A program made the translations under genes and the position numbers. A DNA stretch of 64,000 nucleotides from Haloterrigena gelatinilytica (GTDB lineage: Archaea > Halobacteriota > Halobacteria > Halobacteriales > Natrialbaceae): the NCBI RefSeq assembly GCF_013342145.1, contig NZ_JABUQZ010000001.1:1364001-1428000 (forward strand), given 5' to 3'. Each line of letters begins with the position of its first letter. Position 1 is the stretch's first letter. Below are positions 4,464 through 49,356 of the stretch, in pieces. The notes under the pieces were generated by a model that saw only the letters and a list, made by a program, of their open reading frames with translations, searched no databases and was not told the origin of the DNA.

Positions 4464-5705
4464 CTACGCAGCGTCGTCGCCGTCGTCCTCGAGGACGGCG
4501 AGCCGCGAGTCCCGCAAGAGCACCTTCTTGACGATCGAGGGGTTCTCGAGCAGTCGGTGTTTGGCGTGGGCGCCGCGGCCGCGTCCGCGACCCTCGCGTT
4601 CGGACTGGATCACGTTGAGAAAGTTCTGTTCCTGAAGGATTTCCTGAACGCGCCGCTCGGAGAGCACGTCGAAGTCGAGTTGGAGGGCGACCTCCTTGTA
4701 CTGGTTGTAGATGATCTTCGTCGGGAACTCCTTCTCCGTGCTGTTCTCGGTCAGCAGCGTCAGCGAGTAGAGAATGGCCTTGGCCTGCTGGGGCGAGCCC
4801 TCGATGAGTTCGTTGAAGCGGTCGGCCTCGGTCTTCTCCTTGGCGTCGCGGACGTGGTCGGCGGTGACCCGCGTCGCGTTCTGTTTCTTCGCGATGCGAC
4901 CGGCGTTGCGGAGGATGTCGATCGCCTTGCGGGCGTCGCCGTGTTCCTGGGCCGCCAGCGCCGCCGTGAGGGGAATGACGTCGTCCGAGAGCACGCCGTC
5001 GTGGAAGGCGTCGCGCCGCTTCTCCAAGATTTCGACGAGTTGGTTGGCGTCGTACGGCGAGAAGACGAGTTCGTCGCGAGAGAGACTGGATTTGACGCGT
5101 TCCGAGAGGTGGTCGGGAAAGTCGATCTTGTTGGAGATGCCGATGATGCCGATACTCGAGTCCGAGATGCGCCGGTTTTCTCCCGCACGGGAGAGCTTCC
5201 GGAGGACTTCGTCGTCCTCGAGCATATCGATCTCGTCTAAGATGACGATGGTGACGTCGGTGCAGTGGTCGATCGCCTGCCAGAGTCGCTTGTAGTAGTC
5301 GCCGGTGCCGAGGCCGCGATCGGGGACGGAGACGCCGCTCCGATCGGGTTCGTTGACGATCTGGGCGATCGTCTTCACGATCGACGCCTCGGTGTTTTGC
5401 TCGCCGCAGTCGATGAAGGCGTACTTGACGGTGATGTCGTCGCGCTGTGCTTCGGAAATCACCCGCTGGGTGATCGAACGGGAGATGAGCGACTTGCCGG
5501 TTCCGGTCTTGCCGAAGATGAACAGGTGGTTGGGTTCGCTCCCGAAAATAGCCGGGTTCAGGGCGTCCGCAACCCGTTGCATCTGCTCGTCGCGCCCGAC
5601 GATCCGATCCGGACCGGGCAGGTGCGTAATCTCGAGCAGGCGCTCGTCGGCGAAGACCGGATCGTCGTACCGAAAGAGCGGGTCTCGATCGTCGTTTGCG
5701 GACAT
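4464..5705 (-). CDS. orc1: Orc1/Cdc6 replication initiator
   Basis: A 413-residue AAA+ initiator that binds origin-recognition boxes and loads MCM. Walker A is GKTGTGKS at residues 65-72, Walker B is VTIVILDEID at 151-160, and GIIGISNKIDF follows as the sensor-1 strand. The C-terminal winged helix spans about residues 325-400 and contains a basic patch (EREGRGRGRGAHAKHR). The ATG at 5705 is chosen because the upstream extension is not haloarchaeal coding sequence and runs into the origin. A TATA-like TTTATTTC element (about 5737-5744) lies at the right distance for a short 5' leader. The adjacent origin repeats identify it as the initiator for that origin. Confidence 0.95.
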   Translation of the reverse strand: MSANDDRDPLFRYDDPVFADERLLEITHLPGPDRIVGRDEQMQRVADALNPAIFGSEPNHLFIFGKTGTGKSLISRSITQRVISEAQRDDITVKYAFIDCGEQNTEASIVKTIAQIVNEPDRSGVSVPDRGLGTGDYYKRLWQAIDHCTDVTIVILDEIDMLEDDEVLRKLSRAGENRRISDSSIGIIGISNKIDFPDHLSERVKSSLSRDELVFSPYDANQLVEILEKRRDAFHDGVLSDDVIPLTAALAAQEHGDARKAIDILRNAGRIAKKQNATRVTADHVRDAKEKTEADRFNELIEGSPQQAKAILYSLTLLTENSTEKEFPTKIIYNQYKEVALQLDFDVLSERRVQEILQEQNFLNVIQSEREGRGRGRGAHAKHRLLENPSIVKKVLLRDSRLAVLEDDGDDAA

Positions 5706-5875: not shown

Positions 5876-5904
5876 ACACCGACACCCCCGTCGCGGATGT
5901 AACG
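5876..5904 (-). repeat. Origin-recognition box copy B (degenerate)
   Basis: It shares ACACCCCCGTCGCG and TGTAACG with the long box at 6048-6078 and has the same orientation. It differs in the outer CACAC tract (GACACC). Confidence 0.7.
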
Positions 5905-6047: not shown

Positions 6048-6078
6048 GGGGACACACACCCCCGTCGCGTTTGTAACG
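6048..6078 (-). repeat. Origin-recognition box copy C
   Basis: A 31-bp element beginning GGGGACACACACCCCCGTCG. Its reverse complement occurs at 6201-6231 with one mismatch (GTCGCG against ATCGCG). The two point towards each other across 122 bp. Confidence 0.88.
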
Positions 6079-6147: not shown

Positions 6148-6175
6148 TTTACATCCGCGACACAGGTGTGTTCCA
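6148..6175 (+). repeat. Origin-recognition box copy D (degenerate)
   Basis: TTTACATCCGCGA followed by GGTGTGTTCC: the same order of TTACA, CGCGA and GGTGTG blocks as the box at 6201-6231, with the G tract broken. It lies between the two strong boxes. Confidence 0.55.
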
Positions 6176-6200
6176 CGAAGAGACCCCCACACCTAGACGG

Positions 6201-6231
6201 CGTTACAAACGCGATGGGGGTGTGTGTCCCC
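6201..6231 (+). repeat. Origin-recognition box copy E
   Basis: A 31-bp element containing GTTACAAACGCGATGGGGG followed by TGTGTGTCCCC. It is the inverted partner of the box at 6048-6078. Confidence 0.88.
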
Positions 6232-6391: not shown

Positions 6392-6452
6392 CTAGACTAA
6401 GATCTAGAATAGTTCTAGATCTAGTTCTAGCTAGTCTAGTAACGTGGTCTAG
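6392..6452. repeat. Cluster of eight CTAG tetranucleotides beside the origin
   Basis: CTAG starts at 6392, 6404, 6415, 6421, 6427, 6431, 6436 and 6449; a ninth at 6193 abuts the box at 6201. At this GC content one CTAG per roughly 300 bp is expected by chance, and CTAG is usually under-represented in prokaryotes. The surrounding DNA is the most AT-rich of the origin region. Confidence 0.95.
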
Positions 6453-6728: not shown

Positions 6729-7508
6729 ATGACTCCCGAACCGCCCGCCGCCGAACCGCCGTCCGATCGGACCCCGCCAGCGGTCGCCGTCGTCGACGCC
6801 CAGTTCCCGGGCAACGTCGGTACCATCGCTCGAGCGATGAAGAACTTCGGATTCGAGGACCTCCTGCTGGTCGATCCGCCGGAACTCGATCCCGACGGGG
6901 AGGCCTACGGATTCGCGGGTCACGCCCGGGAGGACGTGCTTCCGAACGCGACGGAGATCTCGTTCGACCGGCTCGTCGCGGAGTATCACACGATCGGCTG
7001 TACGGCGGTCACCAACGAGGACGACCGGAGTCACGTCCGGTTCCCGTTCTCGACGCCCGCGGACCTCGCGGAGCGACTGCCGACCGTCGAGGCGCCGACG
7101 GCGCTGGTCTTCGGCCGCGAACGCGTCGGGCTGACGAACGAGGAACTCGCCCGCATCGACGAGATCTGTTCGATCCCGGCCAGCGCCGAGTACCCCGTCC
7201 TCAACCTCGGCCAGGCCGCGACGATCACGCTGTACGAACTGCGCTCGCTGGCCCTCGACGACGACGAGACCCAGCTACCGGACGTCGAACGCGTCCGCGC
7301 CCCCGAACCGACGGTCGATCGCCTCTACGATCAGTGGGCGGCCCTCCTCGGCGAGATCAACCATCCCGAAGAGAAACGCGACAAGACGATGCGGATGCTC
7401 CGGCGCGTGTTCGGCCGCGCGGATCTGACCGAACGCGAGGCGAACACGCTGCTCGGCATCCTTCGGCGGGCGACCGAACGACCCGCCGAGAACCGAGGCC
7501 GCGAGTAA
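6729..7508 (+). CDS. trmJ: tRNA 2'-O-ribose methyltransferase TrmJ
   Basis: A 259-residue SPOUT (SpoU/TrmH) methyltransferase. The three family motifs are present: PGNVGTIARAMKNFGF near residue 28, LVFGRERVGLTNEEL near 125, and NLGQAATITLYELRSL near 158, which form the knotted SAM site. The C-terminal helical extension (DKTMRMLRRVFGRADL) is typical of TrmJ, which methylates nucleotide 32 in the tRNA anticodon loop; archaeal members act on C32 and some others on U32. The gene reads away from the origin and is followed by a convergent gene. Confidence 0.9.
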   Translation: MTPEPPAAEPPSDRTPPAVAVVDAQFPGNVGTIARAMKNFGFEDLLLVDPPELDPDGEAYGFAGHAREDVLPNATEISFDRLVAEYHTIGCTAVTNEDDRSHVRFPFSTPADLAERLPTVEAPTALVFGRERVGLTNEELARIDEICSIPASAEYPVLNLGQAATITLYELRSLALDDDETQLPDVERVRAPEPTVDRLYDQWAALLGEINHPEEKRDKTMRMLRRVFGRADLTEREANTLLGILRRATERPAENRGRE

Positions 7509-37790: not shown

Positions 37791-38027
37791 ATGCACACCT
37801 GTCGCAACTGCAACCAGTCGTTCCAAACCGAACTCGACCTCGAACTCCACCGCGATACGTGTCGAAAGGGACAACTCCTCTGTCAGGTATGCGGCGAACG
37901 ATTCCGGGAGGGCGACGCCACGCAGGACGGATGGCACTACGAGTGCCCGAACGAGGACTGTGACGGCGAGGGGCTCACGGCCGACCTGTATCGCGTCGAA
38001 GACGTTCGAACGACGACGACGCACTGA
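37791..38027 (+). CDS. Small C2H2-type zinc-finger protein
   Basis: A 78-residue protein. It opens with a C2H2 finger variant (MHTCRNCNQSFQTELDLELH followed by RDTC) and continues with two CxxC pairs (CQVCGERF and CPNEDCDGEG), giving at least two zinc sites. Short zinc-finger proteins of this type are numerous in haloarchaea and affect motility or biofilm in a few studied cases. It is isolated, with 299 bp of gene-free sequence upstream. Confidence 0.78.
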   Translation: MHTCRNCNQSFQTELDLELHRDTCRKGQLLCQVCGERFREGDATQDGWHYECPNEDCDGEGLTADLYRVEDVRTTTTH

Positions 38028-38624
38028 GACCGAGCGACGACCTCGGTTCACTCTCGTTTTCCGACTGGAAACCGGCTGCGACTCGTGTTCCGTGTGCACG
38101 ATCAGGGTGTCACGTGTGTTCATGCGACGGCTGACTCGCGGACCCCTCGATTTTGTCGTTGATTTCGTCAGTGGCGTCGTATGGCCTCGAGAGCGGGGTC
38201 GCTCCTCGACTCGACCCAACGATCGTCCGATCGGGCCTCGAGTTTCGTCGTCGGATGGATCGACGAGCCTGTTCCGGAGTTCAATGCCTGACTCGAGCAC
38301 AGAGACGAATTTCCCGGATCTGGCGGGTGCAATCCAGCGGTTCCATCGGATCAACGGGACGATCGAAACCGGCTGTAGCCGTTGCTACCCTCGAAGCGGG
38401 TTGTATCGCCGGCGGTGTTCGGTAGGCCACGTTCTTCGCGTGATTATAAACTTACAAATGAAACTAGAAAATTCCCGAGCTGACGACTCAATATTCGGTG
38501 CGAAGGCTGGACGAGATCGAATTAACGACTGTAGATTGGTCTCCTGTATGACAAGTAGTGCGAAAACACAAAAAATCAACAGAGCAACCGCTATCCAATC
38601 GGAGAACCCGGAGTGAGAAAAGCG
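38028..38624. other. 597-bp region without recognised gene
   Basis: The left part is GC-rich without a convincing coding frame. From about 38430 base composition drops, marking the left end of the transposase-bearing insertion; the repeat ends of the element were not identifiable by eye. Confidence 0.6.
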
Positions 38625-40409
38625 TTACCCGAACTCCCGTAGGAAGTCGCCCAACGCTCGGACAAACGTCTTCGCCGTAATCACTGGCGGCGACCGGATC
38701 GGCTCGTCGAGTGCGACCTTGATCAGATAGTCTGTGAGCCGCCACAGATTATAGATCAGCGTCGACAACGCGAAGTTACACAGCCGAAGCCGGTAGTCCG
38801 TCGACGACGTCTTCGGCATGAAGTCCTTGATCGACTTGTACTGGTTCTCGATATCCCAGCGCCGACTGTACCCGTTCACGATACTCCGAATCTCCTCGGG
38901 TTCAACGCGGTCTTCATTCGTCACGAACACCGCGTACTTCCCCTCGGCATCGTCACTCGTGCTCGGCGCGTACAGGAACTCTGCCTCGTGATGCACCTCG
39001 CCATCGATTCCGAACGGAACGTCGTGCTTGACAACTGCGTCCGCCGTCGGATGCTCCTGAATATCTTGAATCGCTGCCAAGTCATCCTCGTACGTCGGCA
39101 CTGGGGAGAGGTACGTGAGCCCGCGTTCGTGAACATCTGCGTACACGCGATTGACGTAGAATCCACGGTCGAACATCACCATGTCCAGGTCGACGAACTG
39201 CTCGGCCCGGTCAAGCAACCGACTTACTAAGTCGGCTTTCGAGTACGATGGAGAGTCGTCGGGTTCCCACGCAGAGTCCTCTTTCACTGGCTCGATGCCG
39301 AGTACAATCGGTGCGTGGTCCCCGACTAAGGTGATCGTCGCGTACTTGTATCCACGCTTGTACTCGCCACCTTTCTTGTACCCACTCACCATCTTCGGAT
39401 AGTTCGGCTTCGCGATCCCTGCCTCCTTGTCCTCCCACGGCCAGACGTGGAACTGCTTGTGCGTGATGTCGATCGCTGCGACGGTCTCCCGAGAGTCGAA
39501 GGGATCGTCACCACGGATCGAGTTGATGATGTTTTCCGTCGCGGCGTTGAACGCTGTCATAATTGCGTCCCGAATCCGGTCGATTTCGGGCATCGAATCA
39601 TCGTCCTCGAAGTTCTCGAACGTGAGCTGGCCGTCCGAGTCTTTGGGCGTGGCTATCTTCTTGATTGCCCGTAGGAAGGTCGAGTCGTCGCAGATGAGTT
39701 CGTCGTCGGTGAGCCAGCCGTACTCGGCTTCTGAATGAGCACTACCGTTGTTCGCGCAGATGCTCGCGAACATATCCAGCATTACCTCGTCGGAGTACGT
39801 CTTGTGGGCTGCTCGGTGCGTGTCGAACTCAGGGATGACGTGTTTTCGAGCGAGCGTCAGCGTCTTCTGGGCCTTCTCCTTCTTGTACTCATTCGCGCTT
39901 TGTGACTCCTCCTCAGCGTCGGCTGGGACTGATGGGACGAGCCCTTCTGTGAGGACACCGTTGTCGAGAGCAACTTGTCGGACGCCAGCAACCGTCCGAT
40001 TGAGGACTTCCTGAGTATCCTCGCTGAACTGCGCGTGCGTGTACGAAAGCTGTTGTTGAGTCGGTGTGTTCGCGAGATCGGTAATATCGAGGTGGAAGCT
40101 CTTGACTAAGCTCGGCTCCCGGCCAAGTCGTTGCGCTAACTCGTTCTGTGAGATACCGCGAATCCCTTTGAACAGGAGCGTACGAAACATTTCGTCGGTT
40201 CCGAAGCTAACGCGGTTCTGATCGCGCGCATCCTCAAGATTGTCGACAGGGATCGAAAGCTGACGAATGACATCCCAGAGGTGATCCTCCTGCTCACAAA
40301 GCGCCTCTGCGTGGATAACGATCGAATCAGCAACGCCTGAAGGAGTAGGTGAGATAAATCTACCTCTGGAGAGAGTTGCCAGTCTGGTAGCACGAATGCC
40401 ACCAGCCAT
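38625..40409 (-). CDS. IS4-type DDE transposase
   Basis: A 594-residue transposase. The IS4-family YREG-type signature is visible as YSRRWDIENQYKSIK (Y-2-R-3-E-6-K), which supplies the catalytic Glu. Earlier Asp candidates are AAIDITHKQ and MVMFDRGFYVNRVY. The N-terminal part contains a helix-turn-helix-like GISQNELAQRLGREPSLVKS. The gene is intact, so the element may be active; the first about 20 residues may not be translated. Terminal repeats and target duplication were not found in the 200 bp on either side. Confidence 0.88.
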   Translation of the reverse strand: MAGGIRATRLATLSRGRFISPTPSGVADSIVIHAEALCEQEDHLWDVIRQLSIPVDNLEDARDQNRVSFGTDEMFRTLLFKGIRGISQNELAQRLGREPSLVKSFHLDITDLANTPTQQQLSYTHAQFSEDTQEVLNRTVAGVRQVALDNGVLTEGLVPSVPADAEEESQSANEYKKEKAQKTLTLARKHVIPEFDTHRAAHKTYSDEVMLDMFASICANNGSAHSEAEYGWLTDDELICDDSTFLRAIKKIATPKDSDGQLTFENFEDDDSMPEIDRIRDAIMTAFNAATENIINSIRGDDPFDSRETVAAIDITHKQFHVWPWEDKEAGIAKPNYPKMVSGYKKGGEYKRGYKYATITLVGDHAPIVLGIEPVKEDSAWEPDDSPSYSKADLVSRLLDRAEQFVDLDMVMFDRGFYVNRVYADVHERGLTYLSPVPTYEDDLAAIQDIQEHPTADAVVKHDVPFGIDGEVHHEAEFLYAPSTSDDAEGKYAVFVTNEDRVEPEEIRSIVNGYSRRWDIENQYKSIKDFMPKTSSTDYRLRLCNFALSTLIYNLWRLTDYLIKVALDEPIRSPPVITAKTFVRALGDFLREFG

Positions 40410-40650
40410 TATTGTGATTCTGTGAAGAGTACATCAGGTGAATACCAGAATTTCAGTATGAATTGGAGCGCGAGATTGGTCCGGTAGTGTATCCGATCAT
40501 CTACTTAGATCATATTGATGCGAGGACATGAAGGGTTAGGGGAGCTGTACCCTAAGAATTGGTCGAGGCCAAGAATCAATGCGGACCCAAAATAGGTATG
40601 AGTTTGAATATAGTTTGATTTATACCAGTAGTTGAAATAAGAAGGGCACG

Positions 40651-41199
40651 ATGGGACGAGACGAGTTGGAGAAGTTCCTCCGGAAGAAAGGTGCGGCAGA
40701 ACTCATCACGGAGATCGGACGAGGAACGGCGACGTTCAAAGCGCTCGTTGATGCGGTTTCGATTAGTTCCTCAACGGTTTCCTCACGGCTCTCTGAGGGG
40801 GTTGAGAAAGACGTGTACAAAGTCGCTCATGCTCCAACGGAACACGGGACAGAAAAGCGGTACGGGCTCACAATTCTTGGACGTCGCGTGTACGACTGGG
40901 CAGAGAATACAGAATACGTGCGGAAGGTTCGAGAGCTGCGTCGCGTCCGCCACGAACGGGATACGGCGTTTGAGCAGATGATTGGACGAGTCACTCGGGA
41001 TATGGAGATCCTCAAAATGGTGACTGACCTGGACCCACAACACGATCTTCCGCCTGAAATGCCAGAGGGTGCCTCCATCGTTCCTAAGGAACCATCAAAG
41101 GAGGAGCGGAGAAAGGCTCGAGATAGACGCTTGGAAGAGAGCCTCCAACCAATCGAAGAGGTCGAAAGAAACACTGAGACAGAAGATAATGAAGAGTAG
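40651..41199 (+). CDS. Winged-helix transcriptional regulator (HxlR/ArsR-like)
   Basis: A 182-residue protein. The N-terminal winged helix covers about residues 5-80 (LRKKGAAELITEIGRGTATF, then SISSSTVSSRLSEGV as recognition helix, and GTEKRYGLTILGRRVYDWAE as the wing). The C-terminal half is a charged helix (DTAFEQMIGRVTRDMEILKM) and an acidic tail. A TTTATACC box (40619-40626) is 25-30 bp before the ATG. Codon use is less GC-rich than in the flanking core genes. Target unknown. Confidence 0.75.
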   Translation: MGRDELEKFLRKKGAAELITEIGRGTATFKALVDAVSISSSTVSSRLSEGVEKDVYKVAHAPTEHGTEKRYGLTILGRRVYDWAENTEYVRKVRELRRVRHERDTAFEQMIGRVTRDMEILKMVTDLDPQHDLPPEMPEGASIVPKEPSKEERRKARDRRLEESLQPIEEVERNTETEDNEE

Positions 41200-41617
41200 C
41201 AGTAATTGGTGACGCGGGTTCTTTGTTCAGAATCTCTATATTCTATTGACCTCGAGGATGACGTTAGACCCTGTCCACGAACAATCCCCTAGAGAGGAGT
41301 GGTAGCAGTTGTTCATATGCCATTCAATCCTTGTCCTAACAGTAGATAGTAGCACGGTTTCTTTATTCAGGGTAACTCGCGAAACTCGCGGTAAGTATAG
41401 CCGAAGAACAGAGCAGAACAGGCGTCTATCGGAAGCCAGTTTCACCTTCATACTATGAAAATATCCCTGGCTTATAATCAGCTCACCGCGGTAGCGAGTG
41501 ATGCAGTGTCCACGTGTCCAGGTTGGGGTAGTGGGTATCCTTCAGTCTATGCGGGTTGAGACGCGCAGTTCGATTCTCGCACCGGGACTCGCTGTCTGAA
41601 CGGTGCGTAGTTGCCGT
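41200..41617. other. 418-bp region without recognised gene
   Basis: Moderate-GC DNA with no frame of coding quality on either strand. It lies between the winged-helix gene and a response-regulator remnant, so it may be decayed sequence. Confidence 0.5.
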
Positions 41618-41860
41618 TCAGTCAGGACAAGGAGTTACCGTAGAAGCCCAGTCCGCTCGCATAACTGCTAACCGGAACTTCTCGAACGACCGAATTACCT
41701 CAACAAACTCGCCGGGGTCAGCCGGTTTTTCGAGGATTGCATCCTCGTCTGCATCGTGGTTGAGGTCATGGGCTTCAATTAGGTCTTCATCTATTCCAGT
41801 CGGGACAATCACCGGAATGTCATCCAGTTCGGAGTGGAGTTTGACTTCGTGTAGAACGTC
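41618..41860 (-). pseudogene. Response-regulator receiver domain remnant
   Basis: Translation of the minus strand from 41860 gives DVLHEVKLHSELDDIPVIVP followed by TGIDEDLIEAHDL, ILEKPADPGEFVEVIRSFEK and FRLAV. This matches the C-terminal half of haloarchaeal REC domains: the hydrophobic strand IPVIV, the Thr/Ser after it, the conserved Lys-Pro, then the last helix. The N-terminal half with the phosphorylated Asp is absent, and an in-frame TAA lies directly upstream. It is therefore a fragment of a phosphorelay regulator, probably broken by insertion or deletion in this region. Confidence 0.7.
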
Positions 41861-41899
41861 TTAACCGAAATCACGTAATTCAGAGGGATCTATAATTTA

Positions 41900-42685
41900 C
41901 TAAAGGAGCGGATCGCCATTGGCCCACAGTTGTTGGAAGTACTTCTCAAACTCTTCGACCACCTTCGAATCTTTAATTCCGACTACTCCAATCCGATCGT
42001 CACCGGATACTGGATGTGGGAGGTCAATTGTCGTCTCTACTTGATCGATCACATCGAAAGAGAGTACGACATCAGAAATGGTTCTGACAGTTACATCCAC
42101 CGACCGCTCGTCAATTAGGCACGGGAATCTGTCAGGGAGTTCGGTGACTACCTTTTTACTAAATAGTAGATCAACTGTGACATCTGGGTTAGCGCCCTCG
42201 AAAAGGGCCTCAACTTCAGTTCGGAAGGTATCCCAGGTGGAATTTTCATAGGGGGTTCCAATGACTGCGTGAACGAAATCCTCCGCAGTCCGCATGTGTT
42301 GCTGAAAAGCCGTGCTCATCTCATCACTCCCGAGCGATCCGTGCCAGAAACTACTCTCGATAGGTGGTGTCGGCAGAAGGTTCGAACGGACCGTTTCAGC
42401 TCTCTCTCGATAGCGATTCCACTCTTGAGTGAGTTCGTATGTCCTCTCAGCCAGAAGTCTCTCAACGACGATTTCTGGTTGTACAGCGACGTACTGTTTT
42501 GGATCGTTTGACTGCGTCCGGATCAGTTTGCGAGCTTCAAGGCCATTGAGTACATCATAGATACGGCCTTTCGGAACGTCACTAATATCAGAGAGTTCGG
42601 TCGCAGTTACTGGTCCTGTCACCAGTAGCGCCCGATATACCTTCTCTTCGTAACTTGAGAGTCCCAGTTCGCTCAATTCTGTCAT
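41900..42685 (-). CDS. TrmB-family transcriptional regulator
   Basis: A 261-residue protein. The N-terminal TrmB winged helix spans about residues 5-75 (LGLSSYEEKVYRALLVTGPV, TELSDISDVPKGRIYDVLNG, LEARKLIRT). The rest is a sensor domain with a coiled segment (TYELTQEWNRYRERAETV) and a strand-rich half. TrmB proteins answer to sugars or other metabolites. A TTACAAT element centred near 42712 is 27 bp before the ATG at 42685, giving a leaderless mRNA. It is divergent from the flavoprotein gene, which it may control. Confidence 0.85.
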   Translation of the reverse strand: MTELSELGLSSYEEKVYRALLVTGPVTATELSDISDVPKGRIYDVLNGLEARKLIRTQSNDPKQYVAVQPEIVVERLLAERTYELTQEWNRYRERAETVRSNLLPTPPIESSFWHGSLGSDEMSTAFQQHMRTAEDFVHAVIGTPYENSTWDTFRTEVEALFEGANPDVTVDLLFSKKVVTELPDRFPCLIDERSVDVTVRTISDVVLSFDVIDQVETTIDLPHPVSGDDRIGVVGIKDSKVVEEFEKYFQQLWANGDPLL

Positions 42686-42898
42686 AAGTATCGTTGTACG
42701 TCCAAACGAATTGTAAGTGCTGTTCTGTCTCCATAGCCTCACACCACTTCCATATTAGATACTAGAATAATTTCTGATCAGTGCCGTCTATGAGATTGGA
42801 TTGGAATCTGCGAGGTAGGAGTGCAGATTAGAACAAACTGAAAGTGGCACTGTGTTCCAACACCCTTTCGACCGCTTCTGGGTATTTGTATATCAGAA

Positions 42899-44119
42899 AT
42901 GAATAATCGCTACGACGTGATAATCGCTGGTGCGGGCCCAGCAGGGGCGCAGTGTGCGCGAGATCTAGCCGAGCGTGGCTACGATGTGGTCGTCTTAGAG
43001 ACCGAAGCAGAGGACGAGTTCCCGGCACAGAGCAACAAATCCACAGGCGGCACCTTCGCATCAATGATGACCTCCTTCGGTATCCCCGACGACGTGGTCA
43101 TGCACGCGACTGATTCAGTAGTTCTTGAATCCCCCAACAACTATCTCATCCAAAATCAGCCGGGGTTCATTCTGGAATTTGTCGAATTCAAAGAATTCCT
43201 TGTAGAGGATAGCCGTAATAAAGGGGCAGAATATCGCTTTGACGCCCGTGTAAGAGATCCGATCATGAAAGATGGGGATGTCGTTGGCGTCCGATACAAT
43301 GGTGACGAGGAGATCTACGCAGAGATCATCATCGATGCTACGGGGCCAGCTGCGCCGTTGGCCAAAAGCTTAGGTATCGTCGATCTTGAGCGCACAAATC
43401 ACGCGATTGGTATCGAATACCAATTTGAGGGAATCAACCTCACTCATCCCGAATACGCCGACCTTGCTGACGCGATGATGCTACAGCTAAATCACGAGTA
43501 CGCTCCCGGTGGATATTCTTGGATCTTCCACACTGGTGAGGACACGGCAAAAGTTGGCGTCTGTTTTATTCAAAACGAGCGTTATCGAGAGCACGCCATC
43601 AAGAATCGAACTGTGGACGGTTACCTCGAACACTGGCTTGATACTGATCCACGTTTTGAGAACGCTAAACGAATTTCTGAGACACAGGTTCGTGGCTCCG
43701 CACATATCCAGCCGCCAGGGTCAATGAGTACTACATCATTCATGGCGATTGGCGATACAGTCCCATCGATCGATCCCGTCTGGGGTGAAGGTGTGTATAA
43801 GTGTATGAAGTCGGCTCGTGCAGCCGCGATGACTGTCGATCGCTGTCTCACTGGCTCGGTGGATACATCTACGAGAGCGATGGCGGTCTACGACGATCTC
43901 TGGCATGAGCAGGTCGCATCCCAACAAGAACGCCGTCTGATGATGACCAAACTGCTGTATCTCGCACCAAATGAACGGTACGATCAGCTCATGCGGGATC
44001 TGAACGAGGTCAGCGGAGACACCCTCTCAGCGATCAACAACGGAAATATGCGTGATATCGTCAAATTATTTTATCCCAGTGACTTGCCTCTTCTCTGGAA
44101 ATACTGGAGAGAAACGTGA
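42899..44119 (+). CDS. Geranylgeranyl reductase-family FAD-dependent oxidoreductase
   Basis: A 406-residue flavoprotein. The FAD-binding Rossmann motif is IIAGAGPAGAQCARDLAERG at the N-terminus with the Glu ending the second strand (VVVLE). PGGYSWIFH near residue 203 is the substrate-side motif of geranylgeranyl reductases (P-x2-Y-x-W-x-F), and FMAIGDTVPSIDPVWGEGV is the second FAD motif. Family members saturate isoprenoid chains of archaeal lipids or quinones. Sequence and setting differ from a housekeeping lipid reductase, so the substrate is open. Base composition is low-GC for this genome. Confidence 0.82.
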   Translation: MNNRYDVIIAGAGPAGAQCARDLAERGYDVVVLETEAEDEFPAQSNKSTGGTFASMMTSFGIPDDVVMHATDSVVLESPNNYLIQNQPGFILEFVEFKEFLVEDSRNKGAEYRFDARVRDPIMKDGDVVGVRYNGDEEIYAEIIIDATGPAAPLAKSLGIVDLERTNHAIGIEYQFEGINLTHPEYADLADAMMLQLNHEYAPGGYSWIFHTGEDTAKVGVCFIQNERYREHAIKNRTVDGYLEHWLDTDPRFENAKRISETQVRGSAHIQPPGSMSTTSFMAIGDTVPSIDPVWGEGVYKCMKSARAAAMTVDRCLTGSVDTSTRAMAVYDDLWHEQVASQQERRLMMTKLLYLAPNERYDQLMRDLNEVSGDTLSAINNGNMRDIVKLFYPSDLPLLWKYWRET

Positions 44120-44189
44120 ACTGTGTGGCGCTGTATCCACTTCTTACTCGGTTGCTCTTTAGGAGGGTCTTAGACCTATTTTCGATAAA

Positions 44190-44373
44190 CTACTTGCCCA
44201 CGAATAGTTCGCGTTTGAGGTTGTTCTCTAAGTCACTGTACTTACCGCTGGTTCACGATCGCCTGTCCGACGCTGGTGAATTTCTCGGACACCACGCTCA
44301 CGACAACTGCGTGTGCATACCGATCGGTTCGAACACCATGTGGTAGAATAGCATCTAGTATTACAGCCATCAT
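44190..44373 (-). pseudogene. Possible frameshifted small-gene remnant
   Basis: On the minus strand, frames joined by one -1/+1 shift near 44245 give about 60 residues of plausible protein (MAVILDAILPHGVRTDRYAH ... VSEKFTSVGQAIV, then KYSDLENNLKRELFVGK). No family is recognised and chance is a real alternative. It lies in the 304-bp gap between the flavoprotein gene and the next regulator. Confidence 0.2.
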
Positions 44374-44390
44374 AGCATACCTTAATATAA

Positions 44391-44400
44391 TTTATATATC
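44391..44400 (+). promoter_or_regulatory. TATA box of the regulator-tyrS operon
   Basis: TTTATATATC centred 28 bp before the ATG at 44424, preceded by an A/T-rich BRE-like stretch (TTAATATAA). It predicts a leaderless transcript. Confidence 0.65.
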
Positions 44401-44423
44401 CTCGGTGAATAAGCTGAGATGGT

Positions 44424-44747
44424 ATGGTCGAGCAAACCATAATTGACCGTCTTGAGAAAGAGGTCGATGTTCTCGATCGGCATTTAGAGGTATTTGTCCT
44501 CGTATCGCAGGCCGAACCAATTGGTATCGTCAAATTATCTACCCAGACTGGTCTCCCGCACCACAAGGTTCGGTACTCGCTGCGTGTTCTTGAGGAACAA
44601 GAACTCATCGAACCGTGTTCAGCAGGTGCAACGACGACGGATCATGCCAAAGAATTCGTCGAGACGCTAAACGACGATCTGTCGACTATGATCGACGCAT
44701 TGGATACTATGAGGATTTCTGGATCAAAGGAGTTGAAATCTGTATGA
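44424..44747 (+). CDS. Small winged-helix regulator coupled to tyrosyl-tRNA synthetase
   Basis: A 107-residue protein. The central part (LEVFVLVSQAEPIGIVKLST, QTGLPHHKVRYSLRVLEEQE, LIEPCSAGATTTDHAKEF) is a winged helix of the haloarchaeal small-regulator kind. A short helix pair at each end (IIDRLEKEVDVLDRHL) suits dimerisation. Its stop codon overlaps the tyrS start (ATGA), so the two proteins are made together. This tie suggests that it senses or controls tyrosine or tRNA charging, but no target site is known. Confidence 0.78.
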   Translation: MVEQTIIDRLEKEVDVLDRHLEVFVLVSQAEPIGIVKLSTQTGLPHHKVRYSLRVLEEQELIEPCSAGATTTDHAKEFVETLNDDLSTMIDALDTMRISGSKELKSV

Positions 44748-45727
44748 ATACCTACGAGTTACTCACCCGGAACACTGAGGAAGTCGTTACTGAGCAAGAG
44801 GTACGTGAACTCGCCGATGATCCGGCAGACAAACGAGTCTACGTCGGCTACGAACCATCCGGTGTCCTCCACCTCGGTCACCTTCTGACGGCGAATAAAC
44901 TCATTGACGCGCAGGAAGCGGGGATGGATGTTGTAGTCCTGCTTGCAGATGTTCACGCACATCTCAACGGGAAGGGCAGTTTCGAGGAGATTCACGAGAC
45001 AGCGGAGCGAATGAAGGCACAGTTCGCCGCGTACGGCCTCAATGAGAACAATACTGAATACGTCTACGGATCTGACTTCCAGCTTGAAGCGTACTACTCG
45101 CTCGATCTGCACGAACTCGGCGTCTCGACGACGCTCAACCGCGCCCAACGAGCGGTTGCCGAACTCCAAAGTGGTGACACCGCAACGGTGAGCCATACAG
45201 TGTACCCCTTGATGCAGGTCCTCGATTTCGAATTCCTCGGCATCGACCTCGCTGTCGGCGGAACCGACCAGCGGAAAGTACACATGCTCGCCCGGGAGAA
45301 ACTGCCGGAGCTGGGATACGAGGTGCGACCGTGTTTGCACACGCCCATCCTCGCCGATCTCGAAACTGGCGAAGGAAAGATGTCGTCAAGCGAGGGGACG
45401 ACGATCTCGATGGAGGATTCCACTGCGGACCTCAAGCGAAAGATCGAGTCGGCGTTTTGTCCTCCAACCCGTGATCCCGAGGGCGACCGCGAGAACCCCG
45501 TCCTACAGTTGTTCGAGTACTACGTGTTTCCGCGGTTCGAGTCGGTGACCGTGAGACGGCCCAAGAAGTACGGTGGAAATCGGACATACGAGCGCTACGA
45601 TGACCTCGCGGCGGCGCTCGAATCCGGAGAATTGCATCCAGCTGATGCCAAAGAGACAGTAGCTGGCTATCTCGATGAACTGATCGCTCCAGGTCGGGAG
45701 AAACTCCGCGAACTAACGAGCGAATAG
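44744..45727 (+). CDS. tyrS: Tyrosyl-tRNA synthetase
   Basis: A 327-residue archaeal-type class I synthetase. The HIGH motif is HLGH at 43-46, KMSSS is at 212-216, and the tyrosine-pocket residues known in the archaeal enzyme are all in place (Tyr36, Tyr154, Gln158, Asp161, Gln176). The enzyme should therefore be active on tyrosine. It lies in a mobile-looking region with lower GC and is cotranslated with a regulator, which is not expected for the housekeeping copy. Whether a second tyrS exists elsewhere in the genome cannot be seen here. Confidence 0.93.
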   Translation: MNTYELLTRNTEEVVTEQEVRELADDPADKRVYVGYEPSGVLHLGHLLTANKLIDAQEAGMDVVVLLADVHAHLNGKGSFEEIHETAERMKAQFAAYGLNENNTEYVYGSDFQLEAYYSLDLHELGVSTTLNRAQRAVAELQSGDTATVSHTVYPLMQVLDFEFLGIDLAVGGTDQRKVHMLAREKLPELGYEVRPCLHTPILADLETGEGKMSSSEGTTISMEDSTADLKRKIESAFCPPTRDPEGDRENPVLQLFEYYVFPRFESVTVRRPKKYGGNRTYERYDDLAAALESGELHPADAKETVAGYLDELIAPGREKLRELTSE

Positions 45728-47790
45728 GTCGAAGTCGTTCAGTTCGCAGTTCTACTGATCAGGCGATTCGCTTCTCGCAATCCTGCAAGTAAGCTACGAC
45801 TCAAACCCGATCCTCCGTGATGGAGTAGTGACAACAGCTCAGATCAAAACTAGATTTCTCTGCAAAGCGGACCAAGAACCCGATATTCGCTCTATTTACT
45901 CTTGAGTACTGGGTGTCGACCAGCTCTTCCAAAGCACTGAATTAATTTAGAGTCTATGAGAATTGTCGCTTGATTGGTGGTTTGTAGGAAACCAAACGCA
46001 GGATCTGTGGTAGGCGTCTTCCGGACATTCAGTATAGCGCTATAGGATTTATCCGTCCCCCCTCGTCCAGACTGTGAGATGAGATACTATACCGCAATTA
46101 CCCGTTCATCGAATCCCACAACCGCTTCAGTGCCACCGATTCGATCGCTTGACTGACCCGAGACCGACTGCGAATCGTTGTCCGTCCATTCGCGTACGGG
46201 TTCGAAGCTTACCGTTGCCATCGGAGAATTCAGTTCGCCGATCGCAGTCGGTCCTCGAGTTTCGCGAGGCTCCTCGCTCGACGGGCCGGTTGCCGTTCGT
46301 GAACGCGTTGGCGTCACAGGGGACGAGTGGGCGGTCGACTGCTGGGCTCGAGATAGTTGAGCACGGGCAGCCGAAACGGTATCGCGGTCGAGCAGGCTGT
46401 CTCGAGAACGCGTGCAGCGGTTCACACCGCGGGTTCACGCCGTCCGATAGCGTGATATGCGGGCTCGAGTGCGTGCACTGCGGCCACGGACATCACGCTG
46501 ACGACACAAGTAACAGCGCGGAAATTTCTAGCTGCCGCCGGGCGATGTCTGGCGGCCGCGAAGAATACGGGCTGCAGATGACTCGCTGCCATCCCAGTTC
46601 TTCGATCCCGCTTGGCTCGAGGTCGCATCGCGATTTCCGAACGCAACCGGAACGGAATCGACGGCCGCGCTCTCGAATTCTCGAAGAGTCCGGCAACGAG
46701 ACCTCGAGCGCAGGCGAACGAGCGTATGTGCTCGTGAGCGGAGGGCCACGCTGACTCCTCCCGAACAGTCTGGGTCGATTGGGCGATCTGTTGGTGCCGG
46801 GAGTAGCAGCGAACCTCGTTTATCGACCGTCCGATACAGCCCGCCCGTGAGCCAGTGAGGTTCGGTTGGATCTACGAGCAATCGTCACGCGGTTCGGGAC
46901 GGTCTCGTGCCCAGTAAAGCGGTCCCATCGTCTCAGGTCCGTTCCGCTCACGTCGCTCTCCCTGCCGACGGTTCACGTCCGTGCTTTCGTCTTGAGCTGC
47001 CGCTGAGTCCGTTTTCTCGAGACACCAGTCCAGCCATCGAATCCAATTCGCACGTCGAAAGCGACAGCGACGGCGGCCGATTACCGACTTCTGGGAACTG
47101 CCCAGCGATCCCACATTCCGCGGGAGACGTGAACGGGACTATCCGGTACGCGGATGTTGCACAGTTGGGGACTCCACCATCCGCCGTTCGACGTGCGTCT
47201 CTCCTCCAATCACGGGGACCGGTCGCGACCGAGAACGACCGCCGACCTCATTCGGTTGGTTCGGAACGGGTGGCCTCGAGTGAAATTGAGCACCGTCTCT
47301 CGGACTCGAGTAGCCCTACCACGTCACGAGTTTCCGTTCGGTTCCTCTCGGTCCCCGTTTGCGGAGGGACGGGACGTCGTGACAAGGGGACCCCGATCGT
47401 GTCTCCTCGCTCGGTCCGGCCGATACCTCGAGTCGACTCCGACTAGGGATCGACGGTAGTGCGTGACCGTCACCGATCTGGTAGCCATCCATCCGATGAC
47501 ATATCACGTTACCCACTCACACGCCACTATTATATTAGAAATCTAATTATTTCCCGGCGGAAGAAATACATTCTGGAACCCTGTTTTCGAGTCCTAACCC
47601 CAAGGGTCTGACCCGGGAGAATGCCGTTCAAATTTTGCCGGTTCTGGTTCAGATTCGGAGCCGAACGAACTCCGATTCGGATCAGTTCGTCGACCCTCTC
47701 GATACGAACCGCTCGTTCATGTTGCTCTTCTATCCTTTCGTTCTCTCTGCTCCTCGGCACCCCGTTCTGACTATTTCTTTATTCTCAGTA

Positions 47791-47823
47791 GTGGGACTAC
47801 AGTGGGTGATTTCGAAGTCCCAC
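47791..47823. repeat. Perfect 8-bp inverted repeat upstream of the recombinase operon
   Basis: GTGGGACT (47791-47798) and AGTCCCAC (47816-47823), separated by 17 bp. It lies 114 bp before the DUF5805 start. Confidence 0.65.
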
Positions 47824-47870
47824 ACATACAAATAATGCTACTGGATGCGCGTTATCGGGGTCCCTCGAGT

Positions 47871-47892
47871 ACAAATAAATGCCCTTATTTGT
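47871..47892. promoter_or_regulatory. 8-6-8 palindrome, dif-like or operator site
   Basis: ACAAATAA (47871-47878), a 6-bp centre ATGCCC, then TTATTTGT (47885-47892). A further direct ACAAATAA half-site lies at 47828-47835. It sits 45-66 bp before the ATG of the DUF5805 gene that precedes a tyrosine recombinase. The layout suits either a recombinase core site or a ribbon-helix-helix operator. Confidence 0.5.
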
Positions 47893-47936
47893 GAATGTGG
47901 GATAGATTGATGTGGTTCCGCTGAGAGCCACCCCGT

Positions 47937-48326
47937 ATGGCCGACGACGAACGAGTCGCCGTCAAGACCTACGTGCCGCGGTACCAGAAAGAGCTCTGGG
48001 AAGCCCAGGCCGAGGAACTCGAGATGAGTCAAAGCGAGTTCGTCCGAACGATGGTACAGGCGGGACGCACGTCTTACGAGATACCGACGGACGGGACGAC
48101 CGAGCAGGGTGGCTCCGACGCCGGCGCCACCGGTGGCGCCGACCTCGCGGATCGAATTCTCGAGGTGCTCCAGCGCCGCGGCGTTCTCGACTGGGACGAT
48201 CTCGTCGACGCCTTAGTCGACGACGTCGAAGCCGACCTCGACGCGGAACTCCAGCGGTTACAGGACGAAAATCGGATCCGCTACAGCGGTCGCGACGGCG
48301 GCTACGTGGTGACCGACGATGAGTGA
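47937..48326 (+). CDS. DUF5805 ribbon-helix-helix-like protein
   Basis: A 129-residue protein. The N-terminus (ERVAVKTYVPRYQKELWEAQ, then ELEMSQSEFVRTMVQAG) has the strand-helix-helix pattern of ribbon-helix-helix DNA-binding proteins. After a Gly/Ser linker the C-terminal half (LADRILEVLQRRGVLDWDDL ... LQDENRIRYSGRDGGYVV) looks like a winged helix. It overlaps the recombinase start by 8 bp, so it probably acts as its accessory or regulatory factor. This pairing is recurrent in haloarchaea to my knowledge. Confidence 0.78.
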   Translation: MADDERVAVKTYVPRYQKELWEAQAEELEMSQSEFVRTMVQAGRTSYEIPTDGTTEQGGSDAGATGGADLADRILEVLQRRGVLDWDDLVDALVDDVEADLDAELQRLQDENRIRYSGRDGGYVVTDDE

Positions 48327-49356
48327 GGGCCGTCAGGAGACGAACACGGTCGAATACTTCCTGCAGGACATCGAGCACCACGGTCGAAACGAACGGACCG
48401 CAGCGGCCTACGAACGGGTCCTCTCGGACTACGAAGCGTTCCTCACCGAGCGGTTCGAGAAGACGCCGCCGGAGGCGAGCTACCGGGACTGCATGGCCTG
48501 GGTGCACGAACTCCGGACCACGCACTCCGAAAGCACCGTGGCGACGTACGCCTCGTATCTCAACCGGTTCTACAGCTACCTCGAGCGGGTCGGACACACC
48601 GACGAGAACCCGATGACGGTCGTCTTAGAGGAGATGAACGAGTCGATCGAGTCGAACCCGACCCGACGCGACGTGACGCTGCCCGAGATGCGGTCGTTCG
48701 TCGGGGAGATTCGCCATCCGCTGCATCGAGCCATCGTAACGACGCTGCTGAAGACCGGGATCAGGGCCGGAGAGCTCTGCAATCTGGATTTGATCGACCT
48801 CCACCTCGATCACGAGGCTCAGACCTGGCAGCCGCGGGCCCACATCGCCGGCCGCCCGGATTCGCTGTTTATCGCGACCGAGCACACCTACGGACGCGAA
48901 TCCGGCGGCGAGCGGCGGACGGCGTCGAACAAACGGAAACGCGAGACCGTCGTCCCGATCGACGAGGAATTGAAGGCGGTGTTGCTCCGATGGCTCGCCG
49001 TGCGTCCGGATACGCCCGCGAGCGCGCCGTCAGCCCCTGCGACGGGGCCGCTGTTCGTCGGTACCGCCGATAGCTGGGGCGAGCGACTCACGCCGGATAT
49101 CGTCCACCACGTGGTCGAAGGGTACGCGAGGGACCGCGGCTGGTACCGCACCGGCGGCGGCGCCGCGGAGAACGTGACGCCCCACTACTTCCGGCACTTC
49201 TTCACGACTCACCTCCGCGATCGGACGGGCGACCGCGGGATCGTCCAGTACCTCCGGGGCGACGTCGCCAGCGACGTGATCGACACCTACACCCACAACT
49301 GGGGCGATCGCGTCCGGGAAACCTACCTCGAGCACATCTACTCCGTGATGCCCTGA
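48319..49356 (+). CDS. Tyrosine recombinase, XerC/D-like
   Basis: A 345-residue recombinase. The N-terminal SAM-like/core-binding domain covers about residues 10-110 (NERTAAAYERVLSDYEAFLT). The catalytic domain has Arg149 (TGIRAGELC), a Lys in the beta hairpin near 205-209 (NKRKRET), His289-x-x-Arg292 (HYFRHFF) and the nucleophile Tyr324 (VIDTYTH). The full catalytic set suggests activity. It could be a chromosome-dimer resolvase or an old integrase; there is no adjacent tRNA or attachment duplicate to decide. Codon use is core-like. Confidence 0.9.
   Translation: MSEGRQETNTVEYFLQDIEHHGRNERTAAAYERVLSDYEAFLTERFEKTPPEASYRDCMAWVHELRTTHSESTVATYASYLNRFYSYLERVGHTDENPMTVVLEEMNESIESNPTRRDVTLPEMRSFVGEIRHPLHRAIVTTLLKTGIRAGELCNLDLIDLHLDHEAQTWQPRAHIAGRPDSLFIATEHTYGRESGGERRTASNKRKRETVVPIDEELKAVLLRWLAVRPDTPASAPSAPATGPLFVGTADSWGERLTPDIVHHVVEGYARDRGWYRTGGGAAENVTPHYFRHFFTTHLRDRTGDRGIVQYLRGDVASDVIDTYTHNWGDRVRETYLEHIYSVMP

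Follow-up and report, generated by a model that had tools for sequence, protein, structure and literature searches.

Why should eight CTAG sites be packed into 61 bp beside a replication origin of Haloterrigena gelatinilytica, in a genome where this tetranucleotide is otherwise scattered? The cluster was pointed out in a sequence-only reading of a 64,000-nucleotide stretch (C1:1364001-1428000, hereafter the window) of the 4.55-Mb genome, in which it was likened to the GATC cluster at the Escherichia coli origin. Its density, its attachment to the origin, the nature of the conserved unit and the possible functions were examined.

The array and its place at oriC1

Eight sites were indeed found, starting at 6392, 6404, 6415, 6421, 6427, 6431, 6436 and 6449 in the window, with start-to-start spacings of 12, 11, 6, 6, 4, 5 and 13 bp. 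CTAG is depleted in the window as a whole, with 36 occurrences versus 104 expected from dinucleotide shuffles. The number expected per 61 bp is 0.19 from the local base composition, matching the earlier estimate of about 0.2, and 0.034 from the window's own rate. When the 91-bp region itself was simulated with an order-1 Markov model, eight CTAG came up once in 2000 trials. Only seven places in the genome have three CTAG in succession with gaps of at most 14 bp. The oriC1 array is the densest of the genome, the runner-up having 6 CTAG per 61 bp; many equally dense clusters elsewhere, considered beforehand as an observation that would speak against a special status, were not encountered in this genome, where there are a few weaker arrays away from origins. 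The features of the locus are as follows.

4464-5705, minus strand: orc1/cdc6 initiator gene (TIGR02928; Cdc6_lid and Cdc6_C domains)
5881-5902, minus strand: ORB 1 of oriC1 (repeat search and matrix scan)
6055-6076, minus strand: ORB 2 of oriC1 (repeat search and matrix scan)
6149-6170, plus strand: ORB 3 of oriC1, inverted relative to ORB 2 (repeat search and matrix scan)
6193-6196, no strand: ninth CTAG, isolated, 10 bp before ORB 4
6203-6224, plus strand: ORB 4 of oriC1 (repeat search and matrix scan)
6392-6452, no strand: CTAG array of eight sites (site count; orthologous arrays in 89 origins)
6729-7508, plus strand: TrmJ-family tRNA/rRNA methyltransferase gene, a neighbour outside the element (the array is separable from the gene)

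The locus thus consists of orc1/cdc6, four ORBs in the orientation <<>>, the array about 167 bp past ORB 4, and trmJ. The orc1 copies adjoining the array in relatives are 89-100% identical, and the closest named match of TrmJ is that of Haloterrigena salina (98%). In a matrix scan of the 89 origins, <<>> ORBs followed by the array were found in 88, with 355 ORBs before the array and none beyond it. The last ORB and the array are separated by 46-963 bp (median 165 bp). In Haloarcula hispanica, the minimal oriC1 has been narrowed to AT-rich DNA flanked by two inverted ORBs (PMC3936714); ORB 2 and ORB 3, the inner pair, are its counterpart here. Judged by homology, the minimal origin would leave out the array.

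The ninth CTAG, described earlier as touching an origin box, is present next to ORB 4. Close Haloterrigena relatives have one CTAG about 200-250 bp before the array, so that the site at 6193 looks kept within Haloterrigena. An isolated CTAG at most 12 bp from an ORB exists in only 21 of the 89 genomes. The intergenic region matched no Rfam family, and a scan for sigma-70-type promoters returned one weak match overlapping the array, which is not meaningful in an archaeon.

Attachment of the array to the origin

The trmJ regions of 123 Natrialbaceae genomes were gathered and orc1 was located in each, an array being counted when at least three CTAG were present. Where orc1 adjoins trmJ, an array was found in 83 of 86 genomes, so that the absence from orthologous origins that would have spoken against the sequence-only reading is clearly not seen. 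In 81 of the 83 the array lies between orc1 and trmJ, at most 1.7 kb upstream of trmJ, and in the other two (G036 and G083) it is found just 3' of trmJ. Upstream of trmJ genes without an adjoining orc1, there was no array in any of 37 genomes (81/86 versus 0/37, Fisher p ~2e-26). In two genomes without an adjoining orc1 (G033 and G079), an array lies downstream of trmJ, with orc1 at the opposite end of the contig record. Insertions have moved trmJ 2-3 kb off in three genomes (G011, G064 and G098), and the array is still 670-750 bp from orc1. When orc1 is located elsewhere, the array was recovered 500-700 bp upstream of it in five genomes, with six sites in G007, seven in G008, four in G110 and three each in G099 and G113; it was not found at the relocated orc1 of G048, G049, G084 and G122, which have the CTAG methylase presented below. 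The origins of G090 and G091, also with the methylase present, have CTAG pairs only.

Because synteny breaks and relocations leave the array with the origin, it is an element of the origin and not of trmJ. The oriC1 array is a conserved origin feature across the Natrialbaceae, as the reading had supposed. A working role in controlling the origin is very likely, since the place of the array is kept in almost all relatives while the surrounding letters change. In other families, most oriC1-type origins are without an array; arrays were found in G414 (seven sites), G369 (five), G291 (four), G367 and G238 (three each).

Arrays also occur at other origins. Dense triples (gaps of at most 6 bp) were counted in the 19 genomes whose matches were listed in full, yielding 37 distinct places, of which 14 are at oriC1. 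Eleven of the remaining 23 lie at most 2 kb upstream of another orc gene, several types being represented, versus about 0.6% expected near orc genes from random placement. Two genomes without a close oriC1-type Orc1, G001 and G006, have 9-16 CTAG near another type of orc. In G006 (L329:3990-4182), sixteen CTAG are gathered in about 190 bp upstream of the other-type orc, a total that exceeds that of the window array. In the present genome, CTAG also occurs 368, 373, 384 and 435 bp before a second orc gene (C1:2186372-2187568); these sites lie in AT-rich DNA enclosed by inverted copies of TTTCACTCTGAACGAGGGG. Eleven of the genome's 13 orc-type genes have no array.

In named records, Orc4-type plasmid origins have scattered CTAG and no dense array. 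Plasmid records from Haloterrigena, Halobacterium and Halorubrum repeatedly show one CTAG near -73 and one near -480 to -500 relative to the Orc4-type match (L342-L346). Five CTAG, at 682-718 bp, accompany an oriC1-type copy on a Natrinema record. The 987-kb Natrinema thermotolerans record CP031304.1 (696416-703639, L340), labelled as a plasmid, holds trmJ, oriC1, orc1 with a five-CTAG array and a homologue of the CTAG methylase; it may be a chromid or a piece of the chromosome.

Dense CTAG also occurs away from origins. The chief example is the second-densest array of this genome, nine CTAG in 97 bp at C1:2118227-2118323 (L324:3978-4074; L338). No orc gene is nearby; the array lies between the 3' end of a winged-helix gene and the 5' end of a gene for a DUF1616 membrane protein, and is conserved in G024.

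The CTAG word as the conserved unit

The median array of the 89 origins has five sites in 39 bp. Altogether, CTAG was counted 494 times versus 17.2 expected from the base composition, an increase of about 29-fold that is inflated as the arrays were picked for CTAG. The depletion of other words is less affected by this choice: TTAA was found 4 times and AATT 5 times versus 51 expected for each, which is about 10-fold depleted. ATAT was found 25 times versus 51 expected. AGCT and GTAC are 2-3 fold increased, partly because these words adjoin CTAG. CTAG sites directly follow one another (CTAGCTAG) in 28 cases. Simple AT-richness as the cause of the array is contradicted by the TTAA and AATT counts.

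On either side, the base next to CTAG is A or T in 86% of cases, and a longer binding motif was rejected, nothing being specified in the 89 arrays beyond these A/T flanks. The spacing of starts is irregular, usually 4-13 bp with a peak at 5-6. Helical phasing at 10.5 bp is weak (0.102 versus a null of 0.084, sd 0.012; 10 of 200 random sets reached at least this value). Arrays from different genera do not align beyond CTAG. Between sister species, 77% of CTAG words are retained versus 36% of linker 4-mers, and the per-base mismatch is 9% in CTAG versus 19% in linkers; both comparisons lean towards CTAG, as the alignments were anchored by CTAG words. The selected unit is CTAG, usually A/T-flanked, with the spacing and the other letters free.

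Most genera have about 50-640 dense GATC triples per genome, and genera g2 and g7 have 2-28; the use of GATC differs sharply inside the family.

Methylase, earlier reports and possible functions

A homologue of the CTAG methylase is encoded at C1:1064301-1065587 (PF01555); Pfam PF06175, tried as the methylase family, gave no matches. The homologue is 49.5% identical over 328 residues to a methylase of plasmid pFZ1, the gene of which adjoins that of an MjaI-family endonuclease. Plasmid pFZ1 carries the CTAG system MthZI; by homology, the protein encoded here is predicted to be CTAG-specific. Homologues are present in 111 of 111 well-assembled genomes of the family, in agreement with the earlier statement that an orphan CTAG methyltransferase is common in haloarchaea, and in 41 of 41 genomes from other orders, chosen for an Orc1 match. 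Among these 111 and 41 genomes, none was found that lacks the methylase and has an intact oriC1. HVO_0794 is the CTAG methylase of Haloferax volcanii, and its family has been reported in 174 of 217 haloarchaeal genomes (PMC6471742). N4-methylcytosine was measured on 97.0% of CTAG in Natrinema versiforme and 98.7% in N. pallidum (PMC6696651); the loci of both species carry origin arrays (L096 and L067).

Clusters of this kind were already reported in 2016, and the idea of control by methylation is not new. Blow et al. 2016 (PMC4752239) looked for conserved clusters of orphan-methylase motifs; in haloarchaea, CTAG was found clustered beside orc1/cdc6, at several of the origins of a genome. The text of that paper prints CATG in places, and the figure legend CTAG. 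The clusters correlate with the methylase, and a role in replication was proposed. The array corresponds to these clusters (Fig. 6D of that paper) in its motif, its non-coding location upstream of orc1/cdc6, its occurrence at more than one origin of a genome, its retention between species and its link to an orphan CTAG methylase, a homologue of which is present here. The earlier clusters were described as motif density over 50 kb, whereas the present array is resolved to the base and placed relative to the ORBs. Its anatomy, its separation from trmJ, the distribution over several origins and the off-origin exceptions are new here. In Haloferax volcanii, increased CTAG density was reported at oriC2 only (Ouellette et al. 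2018, PMC5867850). A survey of haloarchaeal origins that included Haloterrigena does not mention CTAG (Wu et al. 2012, PMC3528665). Blow et al. also described clusters of TTAA in Arthrobacter and of CTCGAG in Nocardia at dnaA origins, which are likewise clusters of orphan-methylase motifs, but bacterial, with other motifs and other enzymes. A non-ORB element is known at oriC1 of H. hispanica, where a G-rich inverted-repeat enhancer tunes the origin (PMC3936714); unlike the array, it lies inside the ORB pair, is G-rich and consists of a single inverted repeat.

The best explanation, unproven and with about an even chance of being right, is that the array controls the origin in cis through its methylation state. 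The array would pack targets of the orphan N4-cytosine methyltransferase (Zim/HVO_0794 family) into the most easily opened DNA beside the ORBs. Passage of the fork would leave all its sites hemimethylated together. This state might be read by a protein, or might act directly on strand opening, and would set whether and when the origin fires again. The direct variant draws on general knowledge of melting; a literature search on the effect of N4-methylcytosine on duplex stability gave no usable source.

A more specific version is proposed tentatively and appears rather doubtful. The array would be an archaeal counterpart of Dam/SeqA, an independently arisen methylation-timed switch in which arrays of N4-methylcytosine sites, placed in the weakest DNA of each regulated origin, turn hemimethylated upon firing and block or retard re-initiation; the array would move with the orc-type origin used by each lineage. 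SeqA is bacterial, and to our knowledge no reader of hemimethylated DNA has been described in archaea. The analogy with the E. coli origin holds in part. Both have dense palindromic methylase sites, an AT-rich origin and an orphan methylase, and the array is, as the analogy implies, a conserved origin array of low stability. The modified base differs (N4-methylcytosine versus N6-methyladenine), and the analogy is weakened on two points, because the oriC1 array falls beyond the two inverted ORBs by which the minimal oriC1 of H. hispanica is delimited (PMC3936714), and because H. volcanii from which the CTAG methylase and other RM genes were removed had no growth defect (PMC5867850).

Alternatively, the array could be a binding site for a DNA-bending or CTAG-recognising protein, such as an initiator co-factor, a segregation protein or an anchoring protein, with methylation irrelevant or only permissive. 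This reading ranks second in probability but is unlikely. In its favour, the sites are dense, conserved and position-tolerant with only a short core conserved, distances of 50-960 bp from the last ORB are tolerated as they would be for an enhancer or an anchoring site, off-origin arrays exist, and CTAG kinks under repressors (PMC6471742). Abutting sites without fixed spacing and with little phasing are awkward for one dimer per site, and the core is precisely the site that a universal methylase recognises.

Few orphan methylases of Halobacteria are as conserved as the CTAG methylase, the role of which has been stated to be open (PMC6471742). An array that is resolved to the base, kept as a site count rather than as a sequence, and attached to the origin offers a direct object for testing this role. 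If the methylation state matters, archaea would have their own epigenetic control of replication; otherwise, the array points to a new origin factor that binds CTAG.

The array could also be a duplex-unwinding element to which CTAG merely supplies weak TA steps. In agreement with the earlier description of the stretch as AT-rich, with a possible effect on melting, the array overlaps the least stable 60-bp window of the 1750-bp region in 84 of 89 origins, and shuffling the bases of the arrays makes them more stable (mean z 3.5). The array of this genome's second origin sits between inverted ORBs, the expected place of an unwinding element; at oriC1 the ORB pair does not enclose the array in 88 of 89 cases, and in H. 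hispanica the inner AT-rich stretch is all that the minimal oriC1 requires (PMC3936714). Melting alone fails to explain the choice of word, because CTAG is half G+C and the better-melting TTAA, AATT and ATAT are depleted or not enriched. As the full explanation, unwinding is therefore improbable; easy opening could be a property of the array as well.

That the array is a promoter or operator of trmJ or orc1 is suggested by its location between the two genes, usually 150-400 bp before trmJ, but is refuted as a general explanation and retains hardly any probability, as the array does not follow trmJ wherever it goes (0/37 without orc1; 3' of trmJ in G036 and G083), it lies anywhere between 508 and 1618 bp from orc1, and arrays precede quite different orc genes. 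Equally far-fetched is a neutral relic spared at origins while CTAG was purged elsewhere by repair bias or avoidance: the genome-wide depletion of CTAG (found here and in PMC6471742) fits, but the arrays are far above their own base-composition expectation rather than merely undepleted, and CTAG outlasts the linkers in sister species.

Elsewhere in the window, positions 38000-48000 form a low-GC island (about 50-58% versus 65%). Judged from their translations only, its open reading frames include a transposase-like one (38625-40409) and a tyrosyl-tRNA-synthetase-like one (44615-45727), and a tyrosine-recombinase-like frame, named in the same way, lies by the island at 48319-49356.
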